Notes under the pieces: generated by a model
Told to the model about the DNA's origin: nothing
Seen by the model: only the letters and a program-made list of their open reading frames with translations
The model's database searches: none
Made by a program: the position numbers and the translations under genes
DNA from: Coriobacteriales bacterium OH1046
GTDB taxonomy: Bacteria > Actinomycetota > Coriobacteriia > Coriobacteriales > Atopobiaceae
Length of the DNA: 64,000 nucleotides
Direction: 5' to 3'
Assembly: GCA_004010535.1 (NCBI GenBank)
Contig: RQYE01000004.1
Span: forward strand, 186,001-250,000
Part shown: positions 25,351 through 34,805 of the stretch, piece after piece
Numbering within the stretch: position 1 is the first letter of the stretch
How the letters are laid out: the number at the start of each line of letters is the position of its first letter

Positions 25351-28300
25351 CTAGTACGGATGCTCCGCATAGTAGGTATCGTTGTATGGATTGACATTGC
25401 CGGTGAACTCCCAGTTGTCGAAGTCGCTCACGTCCCCATCGATGACATATTCCCACAGGCCCATGTCGTCGCCGAAGGATCCGTCTTCCTTGACCTCGCG
25501 ATCGAGCATGTAGAAGTAGCGCGGGCGATCCTCGCCCTCTTGGAAGGTGTGGATGGCAGGGCCGTAGGCGGAGAGCATCTCATCGTCCGCACCCATGGCG
25601 GAGAGGATGGTGGGCATGAGATCGGTGATGGTCACGGGTGCCTGGGAGATCTGGCAGGGTTGCGACGCCCCCTCTGCGGTCTCGGCAAGCTTCACCAAGA
25701 TGACGGGCGAGGTGGCCCCGTCGATCGGCTCCAGCTCGTTGCTGTCGACCGGAAGCCACACGCCATGGTCGGCGGTGATGACGACCGTGGTCTGATCGTA
25801 GATACCGAGACGCCTGAGCTCATCCAGATACGCCTTGACGATATTGAACGCACCGATGCACTGTTCGTTCCACGAGGCGGCGGATGATTCGATCCGCTCC
25901 CCATCGCGCGTCATCGTATAGGGCCAGTGGGAGCCGTTGAGGTGGATGAAGCGGAAGCTCTTCTCCTCGTCGTTGAACTCGAGGCCGTAATCCAAGAGCT
26001 TCTCGAGGTAGCGGACGTCATCGGTCTGGTAGATCCGCTCGTCTCCGCTTGCGCGCTCGGAGCGGGTATCGACGATACCCTGGTTGATGTCGTCGGTGTA
26101 GTACCAGAAGGGGGGCTTGAAGAGCCAGGGCAGGTGACGGTAGAGCGCGCAGCGGTACAGGATGCCCAACGCGCCCCGCTCGTCGAAGTTTGCCGTGACG
26201 ACCTCGACGGCCTCGCGCTCGTCGTGGTTGTTGATGGTATAGGATGCGGGGAGGCAGGCTTCCTCGTCGCTCATCGCGATCGAGTCGGTATAGATGCCGA
26301 TGGAGTAGCCGAGCTCAGCGATGTCGGGCAGGAAGCTCGAGTTAGGATAGCGGCTGTCGATATAGTCGGAGATCGTCTGACCGGGCTGGGGCGTCGTTCC
26401 CGTGAGCAGCAGCGCAAGGCCGTAGCGCGTGGGGATCATGCCGCCGGCGGAATTCTCGTAGAAGGTGAAGCCCTCGAGGCCGTCGAGGATCTCGGGATAA
26501 TAGCCGTCCAGCAACGTGCGGATATAGGACGAGTCGGTCATATCGAGCACGAAGACGATGACGTTGTCCTGCCTGGAGACATCGAAGAGGCCGAGCTCGG
26601 TCGTGACGTTCACGTAGTTCTCGGGTGCGATGCCGTTCTCGTCGCCATCCTGCAGGACGGCGGTCCCCGCCCCCTTCACCGTCGAGAGGCTCGCCACGCC
26701 CGCCAGCTGGATGATGATGAGCACGAGTGAGAGCACGGCACCGATCGAACGCGAGAGCTGGGGCTTCTTGGCAGCGAATCCGACGGTGCCCGCGACGGTC
26801 GCGATCCACAGCGCAAGGCTCGGCACGGTGATGCGGATATAATCCCCCCATTCGACGGGCGTGCCGTCCGCGAGCGGCAGGTAGCGTCCGAAGAAGAGCG
26901 ACTCGAGATATGCCGCCAAACCGACGGCGGTGATCACGGCAAGCAGAATATGGAACGGCTTGCCGCGGACGAGCGAGACCGCAAGCGCTCCGATGGCTAT
27001 GGCGATGGCGCCGGCGCGCACGATCGGGGTCCCTATCATATCGACGCCGAACACCAGGCTCGACGCGTTGGTCGCCACAAGCTCGATAGGAGCGACCACG
27101 AACACCGTGAAGATGGGGAGCCCCACCGCGAGCACAGACAGCGCAAGGCGCACAGGCCAGGCAACGCTCACCTGACGCCTCCTGTAGGCCGCCGCGCCCG
27201 CTTCGCGTTCCCGGTGCACGAGCTCGTCGGTCGCAGCCTTCTGCTCGGGTGAGATGCGGTGGACGGGAGGCTCGACGAGCAATCCGCCCTTCTCATCGAT
27301 GTGGAGCAGCTTGAAGATCACGGAACGGGTCTTGCGGAACGCCACGCCGATGATTGCCGAGAGCGCCACGGCAACCGCCGCGAGCGCCTGGATGGCATAG
27401 GTCATGACCGAGGGATCGACATAGGCGAGCGCAGGCTGCGGCACGAGCACCAGACCGGCGACAACGCCGAGCAGGGCGCAGGCCACATCGACCGGCGAGA
27501 TGTGCGCACGGGCATAGTGCTTGCCTCTTGAGCCGGATACGCTACCGGCATAGTGCTTGCCGAGGGAGTCGTCTGCGGGCTCGGGCGGCTGCTCCTCGGG
27601 CGCATCCCCCTGCCCCTCCCCGCCTTGATGTGCGAGGACGAGCTCCAAGAGCCGCTCGCCGGCCCGCTCGCCTCCATGGCCCAGATGCGCGATCATGCGC
27701 GCGCGGACCGTACCGATGTCATCCTTCCACTGCGATGCATGGGCGAGCAGATCATCGATGAGATCGGGCAATCCGGAGAGGGCTTCGGGCGCCAGCGAGC
27801 GCCCGATCTCGTTGCGGATGCTGATGTCGGTCGGGACGATGTCCAGCTTCTCCCAATCGGGGTTGTTGGCCTTCATCGTCGTGTCGATGAAGATCGAGGG
27901 CTTGAGCGTGGTGAACGAGAACTCGAGGTTGACGGTCGACCAATCGGTGATGATGGTGTCGGCCCCGAGGATGCTCTCGTTGGACGAGAAGTCCCGCTCG
28001 AAGCGGAGGCGTTCCTCGGGGATGTGCTCGTAACGGCCGATCAGGGCCTCCCATTTGGGCCGATAGCGCTTGGTGTACTCGGGATGGGGGCGCACGATGA
28101 CACGGTAGCCGCGTGCGAGCAGCACGTCCAGCATCCCATCGATGCAGGAATCGAGGATATTGTCCCGATTCCATGACGGTGCGATGAGCACCACGGGGGG
28201 CGTATGCGCATCCTCGTGCGCAACCGATTCGTAGGCACGGATCTCCTCGTCGATCAGATCGTAACCGATGAGCGATAGTTTCTTGGCATGCGCGCCATAC

Positions 28301-29511
28301 AGCTCCTCCAGCCCGCGCATCTCCGCAACCTGGTGGGGCCCCACGCAGAACACCTCGTCGAAGTGATCGTAGTCGTGCTCGTGACTCGTGAGATGGAAGC
28401 TCGTCGTATGGTGGGGTATGTAGACGTAGGTGCTGTCGTCGCGCACATAGGAGCGCTTGAGGTAGTAGTTATCGAGACCGGGTATGCTCATGGCCACGAC
28501 GTCGGCGTCCATCTTCATCATGAGGGTGATGAGGCGGCGCTGCCCGACGTAGTACGGAAGCAGCCTCGGCTCCTGCTCGGCGATGGCGAAAACCTGATCC
28601 TCGGGGTCGCTCGTGACGTAGTGGATCTGGATGTCGGAATGGAGAAGCAGCCATTCGATGGCACCCTTGAAGTACTTGTAGAAGCCGCTCCCCTCCGAGT
28701 AGAACACGAGGTGCTTGCCCTCGATGGAGAAGAAGCGCCGATAGTCTGCGCGCTCCTTGCGCGCAGAGGGATCGCGCTCGTACCATGCGCGCTGCGACGC
28801 AGTAGATGCCTCGAGCGTCTCGTACTCTTTACGGGCTGCGGCGAGCGCCTCGTAATCGATGTAGTTTGCGGGTCTGATGATGGCGTTGCAGGCAAGCTGC
28901 ACCGCGATGGCCATGAGATTCGAGCAGATCCAGTAGAACGCCATGCCGCACACCACGAAGGCGGCAAGGAAGAGGGAGAGGGCGATGGAGATGCCGTTGG
29001 TCGTGGCCTTCTCAGCACGCGATTGCTCGCGCTGCAGGGGATTGATGCGGTTGGCAGCCAGCCCCTGCGCGAGCGATGAGAGCGCCGCCAGCAGCGGGAT
29101 GACCGCAAGGAGGGGGAATCCCGCCTCGGAGGGCACGATGCCCAAAAGCCTCACCTCGGCATCCCCGCTCTGCACGATGGTGCGGATGACGCCCGAGAGG
29201 CCGAAGAGGATGATGATCTGGGCGATGAGCGGCACGAGCGAGAGCAGCGCATGGTAGCGGCGCTCATGGTACAGCTCGTTCTGCTTCTCCTCGATGGTCT
29301 CGCGGTCGCCGAAGAACCGCAGCCTGATGCGGAAGAGATCGGGCATGAGCTCGACCATCGTGATGGCATTGCGATGGCTCCAAAGCGAGAGCGGCATCAG
29401 GAGCACCTTCGTGATGGCGGTGAAGAGCAGGATGGCCACCCACCAATTCCCCACGAGGGCATGGCACCATTCCACGATCGGATAGAGGATCTGCGTGATG
29501 GATCCGGTCAT
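25351..29511 (-). CDS. Fusion: YidC-like insertase + TagF-like glycerophosphotransferase + LtaS-like sulfatase domain
   Basis: About 1386 residues from ATG 29511 (MTGSITQILYPIVEW), with AAGGGGCGAG ahead. Residues 1-230 are YidC/Oxa1-like: IVEWCHALVGNWW, FTAITKVLLMPLSLWSHR, ALLSLVPLIAQIIILFG. Residues about 260-620 resemble CDP-glycerol glycerophosphotransferase (HLVFYSEGSGFYKYFKG; HHTTSFHLTS; VIVRPHPEY; IITDWSTVNLEFSF). After a hydrophilic linker there are five or so membrane helices at about 660-975. The last 400 residues are a sulfatase/alkaline phosphatase-fold domain: VFVLDMTDSS, HLNGSHWPY and ITADHGVW. The protein should make and move glycerol-phosphate type polymers at the membrane. All domains are in one frame with no stop. 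A linker repeat GKHYAGS/GKHYARA is seen at about 637-655. Confidence 0.85.
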   Translation of the reverse strand: MTGSITQILYPIVEWCHALVGNWWVAILLFTAITKVLLMPLSLWSHRNAITMVELMPDLFRIRLRFFGDRETIEEKQNELYHERRYHALLSLVPLIAQIIILFGLSGVIRTIVQSGDAEVRLLGIVPSEAGFPLLAVIPLLAALSSLAQGLAANRINPLQREQSRAEKATTNGISIALSLFLAAFVVCGMAFYWICSNLMAIAVQLACNAIIRPANYIDYEALAAARKEYETLEASTASQRAWYERDPSARKERADYRRFFSIEGKHLVFYSEGSGFYKYFKGAIEWLLLHSDIQIHYVTSDPEDQVFAIAEQEPRLLPYYVGQRRLITLMMKMDADVVAMSIPGLDNYYLKRSYVRDDSTYVYIPHHTTSFHLTSHEHDYDHFDEVFCVGPHQVAEMRGLEELYGAHAKKLSLIGYDLIDEEIRAYESVAHEDAHTPPVVLIAPSWNRDNILDSCIDGMLDVLLARGYRVIVRPHPEYTKRYRPKWEALIGRYEHIPEERLRFERDFSSNESILGADTIITDWSTVNLEFSFTTLKPSIFIDTTMKANNPDWEKLDIVPTDISIRNEIGRSLAPEALSGLPDLIDDLLAHASQWKDDIGTVRARMIAHLGHGGERAGERLLELVLAHQGGEGQGDAPEEQPPEPADDSLGKHYAGSVSGSRGKHYARAHISPVDVACALLGVVAGLVLVPQPALAYVDPSVMTYAIQALAAVAVALSAIIGVAFRKTRSVIFKLLHIDEKGGLLVEPPVHRISPEQKAATDELVHREREAGAAAYRRRQVSVAWPVRLALSVLAVGLPIFTVFVVAPIELVATNASSLVFGVDMIGTPIVRAGAIAIAIGALAVSLVRGKPFHILLAVITAVGLAAYLESLFFGRYLPLADGTPVEWGDYIRITVPSLALWIATVAGTVGFAAKKPQLSRSIGAVLSLVLIIIQLAGVASLSTVKGAGTAVLQDGDENGIAPENYVNVTTELGLFDVSRQDNVIVFVLDMTDSSYIRTLLDGYYPEILDGLEGFTFYENSAGGMIPTRYGLALLLTGTTPQPGQTISDYIDSRYPNSSFLPDIAELGYSIGIYTDSIAMSDEEACLPASYTINNHDEREAVEVVTANFDERGALGILYRCALYRHLPWLFKPPFWYYTDDINQGIVDTRSERASGDERIYQTDDVRYLEKLLDYGLEFNDEEKSFRFIHLNGSHWPYTMTRDGERIESSAASWNEQCIGAFNIVKAYLDELRRLGIYDQTTVVITADHGVWLPVDSNELEPIDGATSPVILVKLAETAEGASQPCQISQAPVTITDLMPTILSAMGADDEMLSAYGPAIHTFQEGEDRPRYFYMLDREVKEDGSFGDDMGLWEYVIDGDVSDFDNWEFTGNVNPYNDTYYAEHPY

Positions 29512-31006: not shown

Positions 31007-32434
31007 CTACCGTGTGACGACCTCCACCTGGACGTCCAAGATCTTGGCTACCTTGAGGATGGTGTCCGTGTGGCTCCCTGCCGCTGCAGCCATGTGGTGT
31101 GTGGGGCCGGCCTCGGCCCAACGGTTGCTGAACGCGCGCGCACCGCAGGAGAAGCGCATGCGCATGTTGGTGTCGCCGAACTCGAAGATGGGGCCCTCGA
31201 CGTTCTCCCCCTCGGCCACCACGAACTTGAAGGCGCCTTGGGCATCCTGGGTGATGGCGAGGTAGGTGATGGTGCCGAGTGGCGGGTAGAACTGCGTGAG
31301 GTAGCCGCCGCCCGTCTTGCCGTGGAACACGGGGACAACCTTGAGCGTGGGCTTGCGCGCTTGGGAGATATCTGCATCGCCTGAGCCGCTGTGACCGATG
31401 ATGCAGAGGTCCTCGTCGAAGTCGATGGAGTACATCTCGGAGAGCTGGCCCGTGCCTGCGATGGTCTTGAGGATCGACATGGCCATGGCCACCTTCATGT
31501 CGCCCTCGACGGCGCATGCGGTGCCCTGCTTGATGAGCATGGAGAACGCGGGGATGAGCATCGAGTCGAGCACACCCGCCTGGCCGGTCGCCTTACCGGC
31601 GTAGTGGCTTGCCACAAGACCGAGCTCCTCGTCACGGGCCCACTGCTCGAATGCAAGCACGTACCTGGCCATCTGCCGGATAGCCTCGCTCTCGGGTGTC
31701 TCGCCGCCCAGCATGTCGAAGGTCTCGCAGATCTCGGCCGCCTTGGCATCGATGGCAGACTGGTCGGCGATATCGTCGGCAATCGCCCACATGTCCTCCC
31801 AGTCGAACTGCTTGGTGTAGAGGCCCATGCGGTGGTAGAGGTTGGTCTCGTCGATATAGAGGTCCATCATGCCGGGATACGGGCGCCCGATCTGCGCGAT
31901 ATTGGTGCGGCGGAGACGCCGACGCACCTGGGCGGCACGGCACCAGTCCTCGATCTCGGCCGCAACCTCGGGATCGCCGCCCTCCACGACGCCGGTGATC
32001 ACGGCGTGGCGCTTGCCGGCGCGCTCGAGATCGGCCACCATCTCGCCCACGGCACCGCAGGCGTAGAGGTCGCCCAGCCACGTGGGGATATCGGTCGTCG
32101 CATAGTCGGGCCGGCGCTTCTTCTGCACGTTGACGAGGATGACCGGCACACCGAGGTCGCGGATGGCGGGCAGCATGTTGTAACTCGTAGCATAGGTGAG
32201 CAGCTGCAAGAAAACGATGTCCACATCGGCCGCGCGGAAGAGATCGCCCGCCTCCTGCGCCTGCTCTTTGGTGGTCACCATGCCCCCGTCCACGATATCC
32301 ACCGTGGCGGGGATGGTAGCCTTGAAGGCCGCGTACTGGGCCTCGAAGTTGGGTACGAGCTGGGGAAACTGAGGCAGATACGCGCCGAGCGCGACGGAGA
32401 AGACGGCCGCCTTCGCCTTGGTCTCTACGAGCAT
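31007..32434 (-). CDS. AraA/FucI-like sugar isomerase in the rhamnose cluster
   Basis: 475 residues from ATG 32434 (MLVETKAKAAVFSVALGAYL), with AAAGGATCCCATC ahead. The longer frame overlaps rhaD and is not used. The sequence resembles the L-fucose/L-arabinose isomerase superfamily: DIVFLQLLTYATSYNMLPAI, GRPYPGMMDLYIDETN, and metal-site regions near ALVASHYAG and DIDFDED. It lies next to rhaD and rhaB but is not a RhaA-type enzyme, so it probably converts L-rhamnose to L-rhamnulose, inferred from context. Confidence 0.82.
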   Translation of the reverse strand: MLVETKAKAAVFSVALGAYLPQFPQLVPNFEAQYAAFKATIPATVDIVDGGMVTTKEQAQEAGDLFRAADVDIVFLQLLTYATSYNMLPAIRDLGVPVILVNVQKKRRPDYATTDIPTWLGDLYACGAVGEMVADLERAGKRHAVITGVVEGGDPEVAAEIEDWCRAAQVRRRLRRTNIAQIGRPYPGMMDLYIDETNLYHRMGLYTKQFDWEDMWAIADDIADQSAIDAKAAEICETFDMLGGETPESEAIRQMARYVLAFEQWARDEELGLVASHYAGKATGQAGVLDSMLIPAFSMLIKQGTACAVEGDMKVAMAMSILKTIAGTGQLSEMYSIDFDEDLCIIGHSGSGDADISQARKPTLKVVPVFHGKTGGGYLTQFYPPLGTITYLAITQDAQGAFKFVVAEGENVEGPIFEFGDTNMRMRFSCGARAFSNRWAEAGPTHHMAAAAGSHTDTILKVAKILDVQVEVVTR

Positions 32435-32502
32435 GATGGGATCCTTTCTGTGGAGGGCGGGACGTGCGGGTCGGACAGATACCTCCGGGAAAAGTGCCTG
32501 AC

Positions 32503-33336
32503 TTAGCCGATGAACGCCTCGTTGATGACGATAGCGAAGTCCTTGCAGGTCTGGATGAGACCCGCATCCTCGATCTTGTTGAGCCAGTCCTCGGAGCCGC
32601 CGTTGGCAGCGCGGGCGGCCACGTAGAGCTGGGCGGCCTTCTCCACGGTGTGCGCCAGCCCGAAGGTGGTGTCGAAGTCGGGGCCGGCGGCGAAGAGGCC
32701 GTGGTGCGCCCAGACGGCGGTGGAGTAGGTGGCCATGAGCTTGCTCGTCGCCTCGGCGATGGCCGCACCTCCCGGCACCATCCACGGAACCACGCCCACT
32801 CCGGCAGGGAACACCACCACGCACTCGGTCATCATCTGCCACAAGCGCCGCGTGAAATCGCGGGAGGTCAAGGGCACGACGAAGCTCATCTCGATAATGC
32901 CGGGGGTATGGGCATGGTAGATGACGCGGTCAGCGCCGTCCGTGGCTACTACACGCACGCTGTGGTTCATGAAATGGCTGGGGAATTCGCTCGTGGGCTT
33001 TGCGCCGTCGAGCAGGCCCCACACGATACGGTAGGCGGTGCCTTTTCCGTCGATCCCGACGATGCCGATGTTGCAGGCCGGATCCTCGGCCACGTTGCGC
33101 ATGTACTTGCCGGAGCCGGTGGAGAGGAAATACGCGCCGGCCAGATTCTCGCCCGTGACACCCATCTCGACCCACGGTCGCGGCTCGGCAGCGAAGAAGG
33201 GCCGCGCCGCCTCGACCTCCTCGTCCGTCATGCGGTAGGTGAGGTTGCCCCCGTTGCGCTCGTGCCAGCCTTGCAGCCAGCCATCGGAGCACAGGCGGGT
33301 GAAACCCTTGATGAAGCCCAGATCCTCGATTGCCAT
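32503..33336 (-). CDS. rhaD: Rhamnulose-1-phosphate aldolase
   Basis: 277 residues from ATG 33336 (MAIEDLGFIKGFTRLCSDGW), with AAAGGGAGTTCATC ahead. It is a class II aldolase/adducin-fold protein. Zn ligands are in VIYHAHTPGI and AVWAHHGLFAAG, and GSGKYMRNVA plus HERNGGNLTYR match RhaD. It splits L-rhamnulose-1-phosphate to DHAP and L-lactaldehyde. It follows rhaB with a gap of about 35 bases in one operon. Confidence 0.9.
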   Translation of the reverse strand: MAIEDLGFIKGFTRLCSDGWLQGWHERNGGNLTYRMTDEEVEAARPFFAAEPRPWVEMGVTGENLAGAYFLSTGSGKYMRNVAEDPACNIGIVGIDGKGTAYRIVWGLLDGAKPTSEFPSHFMNHSVRVVATDGADRVIYHAHTPGIIEMSFVVPLTSRDFTRRLWQMMTECVVVFPAGVGVVPWMVPGGAAIAEATSKLMATYSTAVWAHHGLFAAGPDFDTTFGLAHTVEKAAQLYVAARAANGGSEDWLNKIEDAGLIQTCKDFAIVINEAFIG

Positions 33337-33371
33337 GATGAACTCCCTTTCGTCGTTGCCTGGCATCGGCT

Positions 33372-34805
33372 TTACCTAGGTTGGTATTCCTCGATAGCGA
33401 AGCTCGCCCGAAGAGCCGCGCGGGCATCCTCCAGACTCGCGTACGTTCCCACGTAGATGAACTGCACCATGAGGTTGCCGAGCGCCGTGCCCTCGGTGGG
33501 ACCGGCGAAAACGGCGAGCCCGCAGGCGTCGGCCGTGGCCTGGTTGAGATAGGCGTTGGCAGAGCCCCCGCCCACGATGTTGATGCTCGTGTAGTCTACG
33601 CCGGTAAGCTCGCGCAGCTGGGCGACCGTACGCGCGTAGTCGGCCGCCAGGGAGTCGTACACGGTGAGCGCGTACTCCCCCATCGTCTGGGGAACCTGCC
33701 GCCGACCGGACCGGGCGGCCACCTCGCGAAGCGCCGCAAGCATGCTCGCAGGGGCGAGGAATGCGGGATCGTCGGCGTCAACCACGCAGGAGAAGCCCGC
33801 CGCGCGCGCATCCTCTGCCGCGGCGACGAGATCTTGCCAGCTGGGAGCTTTGCCGCTCCGGACGCCGAACTCCCTGCGCACGCTCTGGATCATCCAGAGG
33901 CCCATGATGTTCTTGAGGTAGCGGAAGCGCCTCCCGTAGCCGCCCTCGTTGGTGAAGTTCAATCCAGCGCTCCGGACGGTGCAGATCGGCTCGCGCATCT
34001 CGACGCCCATGAGGCTCCATGTACCGCTCGAGAGGTACACCGCCCGCTCATCGCGTGCGGGCACGGCGAGCCAGGCGGATCCGGTATCGTGGCTTGCCAC
34101 AAGCATGACTTCGGCATCGAAGCCAACGCGTGCGGCGATCTCGGGACGAAGACGTCCCAACGAAGCACCGGGCATGGAGATGGGCTGAAACATGCCGCGC
34201 GGCAGGTTGAGGCGGGCGATGAGCTCCTCGTCCCAATCGCCCGTCAGGGCATTCACGAGCGCGGTCGTCGACGCGTTGGTGTACTCGTTGGCCTTCACGC
34301 CGCAGAGCACCCAGTTGAGGTAGTCGGGTACCATGAGGAAGCTGCATGCGGCCTCGAGCTGCCCGCGATCGTCGCGCGAAAGCGCGCAGAGCTGGTAGGC
34401 GGTGTTGAACTGCTGGTACTGGATGCCCGTGCGTCCATAGTGCTCCTCAAAGGAGAGGATGCCGGCGAGCTCCAGCGCGTCGCGCACGCCGTCGGTGCGG
34501 GGATCGCGGTAGCCCACGCAGTCCCCGATGCGCTCGTCGTGCTCATCGAGCAGCACGTAGTCCACGGCCCAGGTGTCGATGCCGATGGTGGCGGGCGCGA
34601 ATCCCCGCTCGTGCGCAGCGGCAAGCCCGGCGATGACGTTCTCGGCCAGCGTATCGATGTCCCACACGAAATGCCTGCCGCGACGCGCGAGGCCGTTCTC
34701 GAAGCGGTAGACCTCGGTGAGCTCCATGCGCCCGTCGACGACCTGCCCCACGATATGACGGCCGCTCGATGCGCCGATATCGATGGCGAGATGGCACTCC
34801 TGCAT
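33372..34805 (-). CDS. rhaB: Rhamnulokinase
   Basis: 477 residues from ATG 34805, with GAAAGGACATGCT ahead. The FGGY-type sugar kinase fold is clear: phosphate-1 LAIDIGASSGRHIVGQV near residue 6, GIDTWAVDYVLLDE, and NIVGGGSANAYLNQ near 400. The name RhaB is chosen because the protein opens with DIGASSGR and its neighbour is rhaD. It phosphorylates L-rhamnulose. First gene of the rha operon. Confidence 0.9.
   Translation of the reverse strand: MQECHLAIDIGASSGRHIVGQVVDGRMELTEVYRFENGLARRGRHFVWDIDTLAENVIAGLAAAHERGFAPATIGIDTWAVDYVLLDEHDERIGDCVGYRDPRTDGVRDALELAGILSFEEHYGRTGIQYQQFNTAYQLCALSRDDRGQLEAACSFLMVPDYLNWVLCGVKANEYTNASTTALVNALTGDWDEELIARLNLPRGMFQPISMPGASLGRLRPEIAARVGFDAEVMLVASHDTGSAWLAVPARDERAVYLSSGTWSLMGVEMREPICTVRSAGLNFTNEGGYGRRFRYLKNIMGLWMIQSVRREFGVRSGKAPSWQDLVAAAEDARAAGFSCVVDADDPAFLAPASMLAALREVAARSGRRQVPQTMGEYALTVYDSLAADYARTVAQLRELTGVDYTSINIVGGGSANAYLNQATADACGLAVFAGPTEGTALGNLMVQFIYVGTYASLEDARAALRASFAIEEYQPR

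Follow-up and report, generated by a model that had tools for sequence, protein, structure and literature searches.

A single gene joining YidC-like, GT-B and LtaS-like modules in Coriobacteriia: a possible membrane machine that attaches small phospho-alcohol groups to the cell surface

The window analysed here is a 64,000-nucleotide stretch of Coriobacteriales bacterium OH1046 (contig RQYE01000004.1, positions 186,001 to 250,000), and the gene of interest is an uninterrupted minus-strand frame within it, encoding 1386 aa from an ATG, or 1391 aa if an upstream GTG is the start. An earlier note, made from the letters alone, had described one frame of about 1386 codons joining YidC-, TagF- and LtaS-like domains with several membrane helices. 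The frame was confirmed, as were the YidC- and LtaS-like domains, the helices and the membrane setting proposed for the domains (a YidC core and five predicted helices in the LtaS-like half), but a fourth module, the YVDPS segment (Table 1), had been overlooked, as had the two-gene form usual in relatives and a second copy of the system, fused in another way, in the same genome. The helices and charge bias place the YidC part in the membrane, the GT-B domain in the cytosol and the LtaS-like domain outside. We suggest, with a probability of roughly 55%, that the product is a membrane machine with four modules in one chain, which attaches small phospho-alcohol groups (phosphocholine, phosphoethanolamine or an amino-alcohol phosphate), or phosphonate analogues of these, to the surface.

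Table 1. Modules of the window gene, with window positions, and loci that share its architecture.
Feature	Positions	Strand	Evidence
Whole gene, 1386 codons + stop: YidC-like / GT-B / YVDPS segment / LtaS-like	25351..29511	-	
YidC/Oxa1-like membrane domain, residues 1-215	28867..29511	-	Pfam, YidC structures, invariant K35
Cytosolic GT-B domain of the Glyphos_transf kind, residues 255-632	27616..28749	-	Pfam, relatives, model
Fusion linker, residues 633-670, unconserved	27502..27615	-	
'AYVDPSVMTY' membrane segment, residues 671-745	27277..27501	-	Alignment, standalone copies elsewhere
Membrane region of LtaS-like half, residues 746-970, five predicted helices	26602..27276	-	AlphaFold2 model, hydropathy
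Extracellular LtaS-like / alkaline-phosphatase-superfamily domain, residues 971-1386	25354..26601	-	Pfam, alignment, model
Loci with the same whole fusion: L061, L062, L031/L056, L032, L083			

The Pfam family 60KD_IMP matched residues 23–209 far above its cut-off (E 7.7e-25; 88 bits versus 35), its core was present in 24 of 24 relatives, and the YidC part matched YidC structures at 1.8e-10. Residue K35, invariant across the 24 relatives, aligns to R366 of Escherichia coli, the positive groove residue; PMC8920935 gives a positive charge in the groove as a requirement. The 60KD_IMP core and the groove charge, read from the sequence, assign the domain to the YidC/Oxa1 family. Lipid scrambling by insertases of this family has been seen both in vitro and in simulations (PMC10491306). 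The canonical yidC is a separate gene of the same genome (G000, the window's own genome, at G000:C16). An NCBIfam search with the window protein returned only YidC-type and weak sulfatase-type matches. The AlphaFold2 model of the YidC-GT half, that is, the YidC-like and GT-B domains together (pLDDT 81), has a YidC-like helical domain and a GT-B fold.

The window protein matched Glyphos_transf just below the cut-off (residues 437–541; E 9.8e-4; 18.6 bits versus 22.1). Nevertheless, 23 of the 24 YidC-GT proteins aligned (alignment A1) matched this family with E ≤ 0.01 (best value 3.8e-14), and these relatives, together with the GT-B model, support the CDP-glycerol glycerophosphotransferase-like domain of the earlier note. 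Invariant positions include H367/H368, R474-P-H-P and T522-D-W-S. The top Foldseek matches of the model were WaaG and the CMP-bound capsule enzyme 8a0c; the domain matches Glyphos_transf and not LicD. A distant actinobacterium (locus L178 of genome G361) has a standalone GT-B domain of this family, the smallest version on which an enzyme assay could be run.

The C-terminal half matched Pfam Sulfatase above the cut-off (residues 1153–1308; E 9.1e-8); its best sequence match in the PDB was LtaS, and a profile of the aligned LtaS-like proteins found Staphylococcus aureus LtaS at 7e-8. Its AlphaFold2 model (pLDDT 80) combines membrane helices with an alkaline-phosphatase-superfamily domain, with YejM/PbgA, LtaS, LtaP and MCR-1 as structural matches. 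The LtaS catalytic positions were invariant in 25 LtaS-like relatives (alignment A2): D990 (the E255 position), H1195, D1248/H1249 and the nucleophile T1028, the last placed by motif position rather than by a scored alignment. The modelled superfamily fold, the predicted threonine nucleophile and metal ligands, and their location after several membrane helices are the hallmarks of LtaS-type headgroup transferases. However, the plain LtaS architecture, consisting of membrane helices and an extracellular domain only, is extended here by the YVDPS segment and the YidC-GT partner. At several loci (L034, L065, L068 and L097) two or three segment-LtaS paralogues lie in tandem downstream of one YidC-GT gene, and at L131, L126 and similar loci LtaS-like proteins with PG_binding_1 (peptidoglycan-binding) repeats are encoded upstream of YidC-GT.

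The separable fourth module (residues ~671–745) contains ALAYVDPSVMTYAIQALAAVAVALSAIIGVAFRKTR and appears to be built from a signal-peptide-like helix, a YVDP motif, one membrane helix and a basic tail; in the linker before it, GKHYA occurs twice. The segment forms the start of the separate LtaS-like gene in other Coriobacteriia, and Clostridia encode it on its own, as a protein of about 60–100 residues adjoining YidC-GT, with an LtaS-like gene close by. Of the 28 loci outside Coriobacteriia, 27 had a YVDPS small protein no more than ~8 kb from YidC-GT, counting fused and partial copies of the segment, and an LtaS-like gene was mostly present as well. Many of the free proteins are predicted to be single-pass and N-outside, with a YVDP/YIDP motif, one helix and a K/R-rich tail.

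YidC-GT was detected in 26 of 199 Coriobacteriia genomes, in the Atopobium/Olsenella and Eggerthella families, usually as two adjacent, often overlapping genes (YidC-GT followed by segment-LtaS). In GC-rich loci, gene frames were chosen by conservation between loci. The whole fusion was found in the window's genus in two sister species (L061 and L062; 77% identity), in a pair of species related to Lancefieldella (G044/G056) and in another, Eggerthellaceae-like, pair (G156 and L083). The tree requires three changes, forced by its starred branches; the full fusion thus arose three times independently. Within a sample of 396 Actinomycetota genomes, YidC-GT was confined to Coriobacteriia, and one further match, in G361, consisted of the GT-B domain only. 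The labels Victivallales and Planctomycetia, attached to metagenome-assembled genomes (L109, L113), are possible binning errors. Cultured gut and oral carriers include Lancefieldella rimae, Atopobium minutum, Olsenella profusa, Eggerthella sinensis, Slackia faecicanis, Angelakisella massiliensis and Eubacterium coprostanoligenes.

The earlier note had also raised the possibility of an assembly joining error. An assembly join or frameshift was ruled out, because the same whole fusion is present in L061 and L062, which come from separate assemblies, and in two further lineages, and because the gene is under purifying selection. The ratio of nonsynonymous to synonymous substitution rates (Ka/Ks) between the window gene and L061 was about 0.1–0.2 for the YidC, GT-B, segment, membrane and LtaS-like parts, with synonymous sites near saturation in the C-terminal part, and the linker alone was free of constraint. 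A separate start within the window gene for its LtaS-like half is improbable, as no ATG lies immediately 5' of the segment. The sole candidate at this junction is a GTG that, judged by eye, lacks a well-placed ribosome site, and the window gene therefore most likely yields a single product.

A second system in G000 and L061 consists of shuffled parts, with a YidC-LtaS fusion and a fusion of a YIDPGTGS segment to a GT-B domain. The G000 copy lies outside the window, about 200 kb away (C13:7179-11235, locus L055), where a 930-aa YidC-LtaS gene (60KD_IMP 4e-20 in G000) is followed by a 415-aa 'YIDPGTGSMLF' segment-GT gene (Glyphos_transf 2e-7). From their form, the YVDPSV and YIDPGTGS segments are likely to be homologous. 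Downstream on the same strand in G000, in an operon-like run with it, are a fusion of a nucleotidyltransferase with a CobD/HisC-like aminotransferase fold, an octopine-dehydrogenase-like dehydrogenase, an amidohydrolase and LicC-LicA. The fusion of the same kinds of part in two orders is the strongest evidence that these parts touch one another or pass a product on. A functional unit is strongly supported by the split and re-fused forms of other bacteria, as is the suggestion, already made in the earlier note, that the parts act together.

The YidC part might instead be a dedicated insertase or chaperone for the N-out/C-in YVDPS segment or for the helices of the LtaS-like half, with the GT-B domain merely tethered to it; the earlier note had similarly proposed that it helps to fold or dock the enzyme. 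In its favour, YidC inserts proteins into membranes, the groove has kept its positive charge as K35, and small single-pass proteins such as the YVDPS protein are typical YidC clients. However, a canonical yidC is already present in the genome, insertion does not need fusion to a cytosolic enzyme or a new fusion to LtaS in the second system, and the GT-B modules of G361 and G159 have no fused YidC part. We therefore regard this explanation as rather improbable. A role as a mere anchor or assembly platform, with another protein (MATE or ABC) flipping the GT-B product and the LtaS-like part working independently, would account for the flippase-like genes noted by eye in several neighbourhoods (fam22). 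This is unlikely, since the constraint on the YidC core exceeds the needs of an anchor (83% aa identity between the window protein and L061, Ka/Ks about 0.17, many invariant residues), and both systems took the same fold as partner.

The identity of the transferred group was approached through donor genes. The fusion LicC-LicA (a MobA-like cytidylyltransferase joined to a choline/ethanolamine kinase) was found in 24 of 26 YidC-GT genomes versus 15 of 30 relatives without YidC-GT (Fisher p 0.001, uncorrected for relatedness). It lay within 10 kb of YidC-GT in 10 of 24 genomes, from eight genera, against an expected 0.44 and a maximum of 6 in 200,000 simulations. A LicB-like EamA carrier is encoded beside YidC-GT in relatives, LicD at some loci, and at L047 an ethanolamine permease above its curated cut-off adjoins the system. 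Outside Coriobacteriia, 11 of the 28 loci contained phosphoenolpyruvate mutase (PepM; p about 1e-17 with one copy assumed in every genome). Its usual companions there were a cytidylyltransferase, either fused or adjacent, Ppd (TIGR03297, 5e-136), an iron-dependent alcohol dehydrogenase or PhnW. The G361 locus (L178, 5023-9740) is an operon of CTP-transferase/PepM, Ppd, iron-dependent alcohol dehydrogenase and, at its end, the standalone GT-B gene. All these neighbours are in keeping with small phospho- or phosphono-alcohols linked to CDP or CMP, and we consider it quite likely that the donor belongs to this class. Phosphonates were rejected as the general donor, because most YidC-GT Coriobacteriia lack PepM (present in 3 of 26), and none was found in the window organism.

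The donor data also bear on a reading of the gene as a one-chain teichoic-acid synthase, in which a TagF/TarL-like polymerase would act on CDP-glycerol (or CDP-ribitol) beside an LtaS-like part using phosphatidylglycerol. The best family match of the GT-B domain, Glyphos_transf, and the LtaS match of the C-terminal half are what such an enzyme would show, and the earlier note had likewise favoured a teichoic-acid-like polymer of glycerol phosphate. However, no recognisable TagD was found in the window genome, and only 3 of the 26 YidC-GT genomes have one above the cut-off; CDP-glycerol was rejected as donor on these counts. Furthermore, the neighbours in relatives activate choline, ethanolamine, other amino alcohols or phosphonates instead, and the standalone GT-B domain of G361 belongs to a phosphonate operon. 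The glycerol-phosphate polymer was thus not borne out, and a teichoic-acid synthase is improbable.

Our preferred reading remains surface decoration with small phospho-alcohol groups. The cytosolic GT-B domain would load an acceptor in the membrane, most likely a lipid, with the group of a CDP- or CMP-activated donor; the YidC fold, with a hydrophilic groove able to scramble lipids, would let the headgroup cross the membrane (the least secure step); and the extracellular LtaS-like domain would accept the group on its threonine and transfer it to a glycan or polymer of the surface, by analogy with LtaS acting on phosphatidylglycerol, MCR/EptA on phosphatidylethanolamine and PptA on phosphatidylcholine. 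The YVDP segment, N-outside and with one helix, may fit in between the YidC part and the LtaS-like part. Loading and unloading are proposed to follow the chemistry of the families. LtaS-type enzymes take headgroups from lipids, and PptA takes phosphocholine from phosphatidylcholine. As YidC/Oxa1 proteins also scramble lipids, loading inside, flipping and unloading outside would be the simplest cycle; lipid phosphocholine donors are discussed in PMC10434233. Such a trans-membrane relay is possible, at somewhat less than even odds, and its specific form, with a YidC fold turned into a lipid-headgroup translocase that carries a phosphocholine-, phosphoethanolamine- or phosphonate-lipid loaded by the GT-B domain to the LtaS-like domain for unloading, is put forward more tentatively still. 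The solid parts are the modules, their near-universal co-occurrence, the repeated independent fusion and the link to donor-making genes.

Several observations weigh against this interpretation. No lic or phosphonate genes adjoin the window gene; the linkage was seen in relatives, the window genome carries LicC-LicA elsewhere, and the donor is deduced from genome and relatives together. LicD, the known user of CDP-choline, is a neighbour at some loci and may be the enzyme that in fact consumes the donor. Genomes G092 and G098 (L036, L049) have YidC-GT without a full LicC-LicA and carry a MobA-like nucleotidyltransferase about 5 kb from YidC-GT, so that this lineage may use a different donor. 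Half of the genomes without YidC-GT also carry LicC-LicA, related genomes are non-independent samples, and the GT-B domain resembles TagF-type proteins only distantly.

The window gene is flanked by purF-like and icd-like genes. By eye, positions 31007–34805 of the window encode an L-fucose/arabinose-isomerase-like protein, a rhamnulose-phosphate aldolase and a rhamnulokinase, an ordinary deoxy-sugar catabolic set.

The openly licensed literature yielded no description of YidC fused with a glycerophosphotransferase, LtaS, PepM or a teichoic enzyme. The YidC-like domain shares with the YidC/Oxa1 insertases the 60KD_IMP core, the positive groove residue and, in the model, the helical core, but it is a paralogue besides the canonical yidC, and an enzyme domain replaces the YidC tail. 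TagF/TarL enzymes (PF04464) share the GT-B fold, the conserved histidines (HH, RPHP) and the family match of 23 of 24 members; in contrast, the present protein is fused to YidC, its own match is partial and weak, and most of the genomes lack the TagD partner. LtaS/LtaP, EptA/MCR, PptA and YejM have the same superfamily fold and aligned active-site residues, but not the YVDPS segment or the fusion or linkage to YidC-GT. The Lic-1 pathway (LicA, LicB, LicC and LicD) is similar in its choline/ethanolamine kinase, cytidylyltransferase and permease genes, which adjoin the present system, and in the proposed end result, a phospho-alcohol on a surface glycan. However, the LicD transferase acts from CDP-choline before export, whereas the present system joins a GT-B domain to a YidC fold and to an LtaS-like transferase outside the cell, and LicD is only an occasional neighbour.

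The Pnt pathway (Ppm/PepM, Ppd and PntC) resembles the 11 loci at which PepM, a cytidylyltransferase, Ppd, an iron-dependent alcohol dehydrogenase or PhnW adjoin YidC-GT, although most Coriobacteriia with YidC-GT have no PepM. Rice et al. 2019 (PMC6697681) described the activation of 2-aminoethylphosphonate (AEP) with CTP and left open the steps after CMP-AEP, which they called enigmatic; the words YidC and sulfatase are absent from the main text. If the relay operates as proposed, the YidC fold would have gained a new use, and in some bacteria the system would supply the transfer step that is missing from phosphonate tailoring. Surface phosphocholine and phosphonates matter for host recognition. 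The system is, moreover, a natural setting in which to ask if the YidC/Oxa1 fold, a lipid scrambler in vitro, performs lipid export in a living cell, and, as it adjoins the Pnt-type genes and is carried by cultured gut and oral bacteria, it makes the question of what follows CMP-AEP directly testable.

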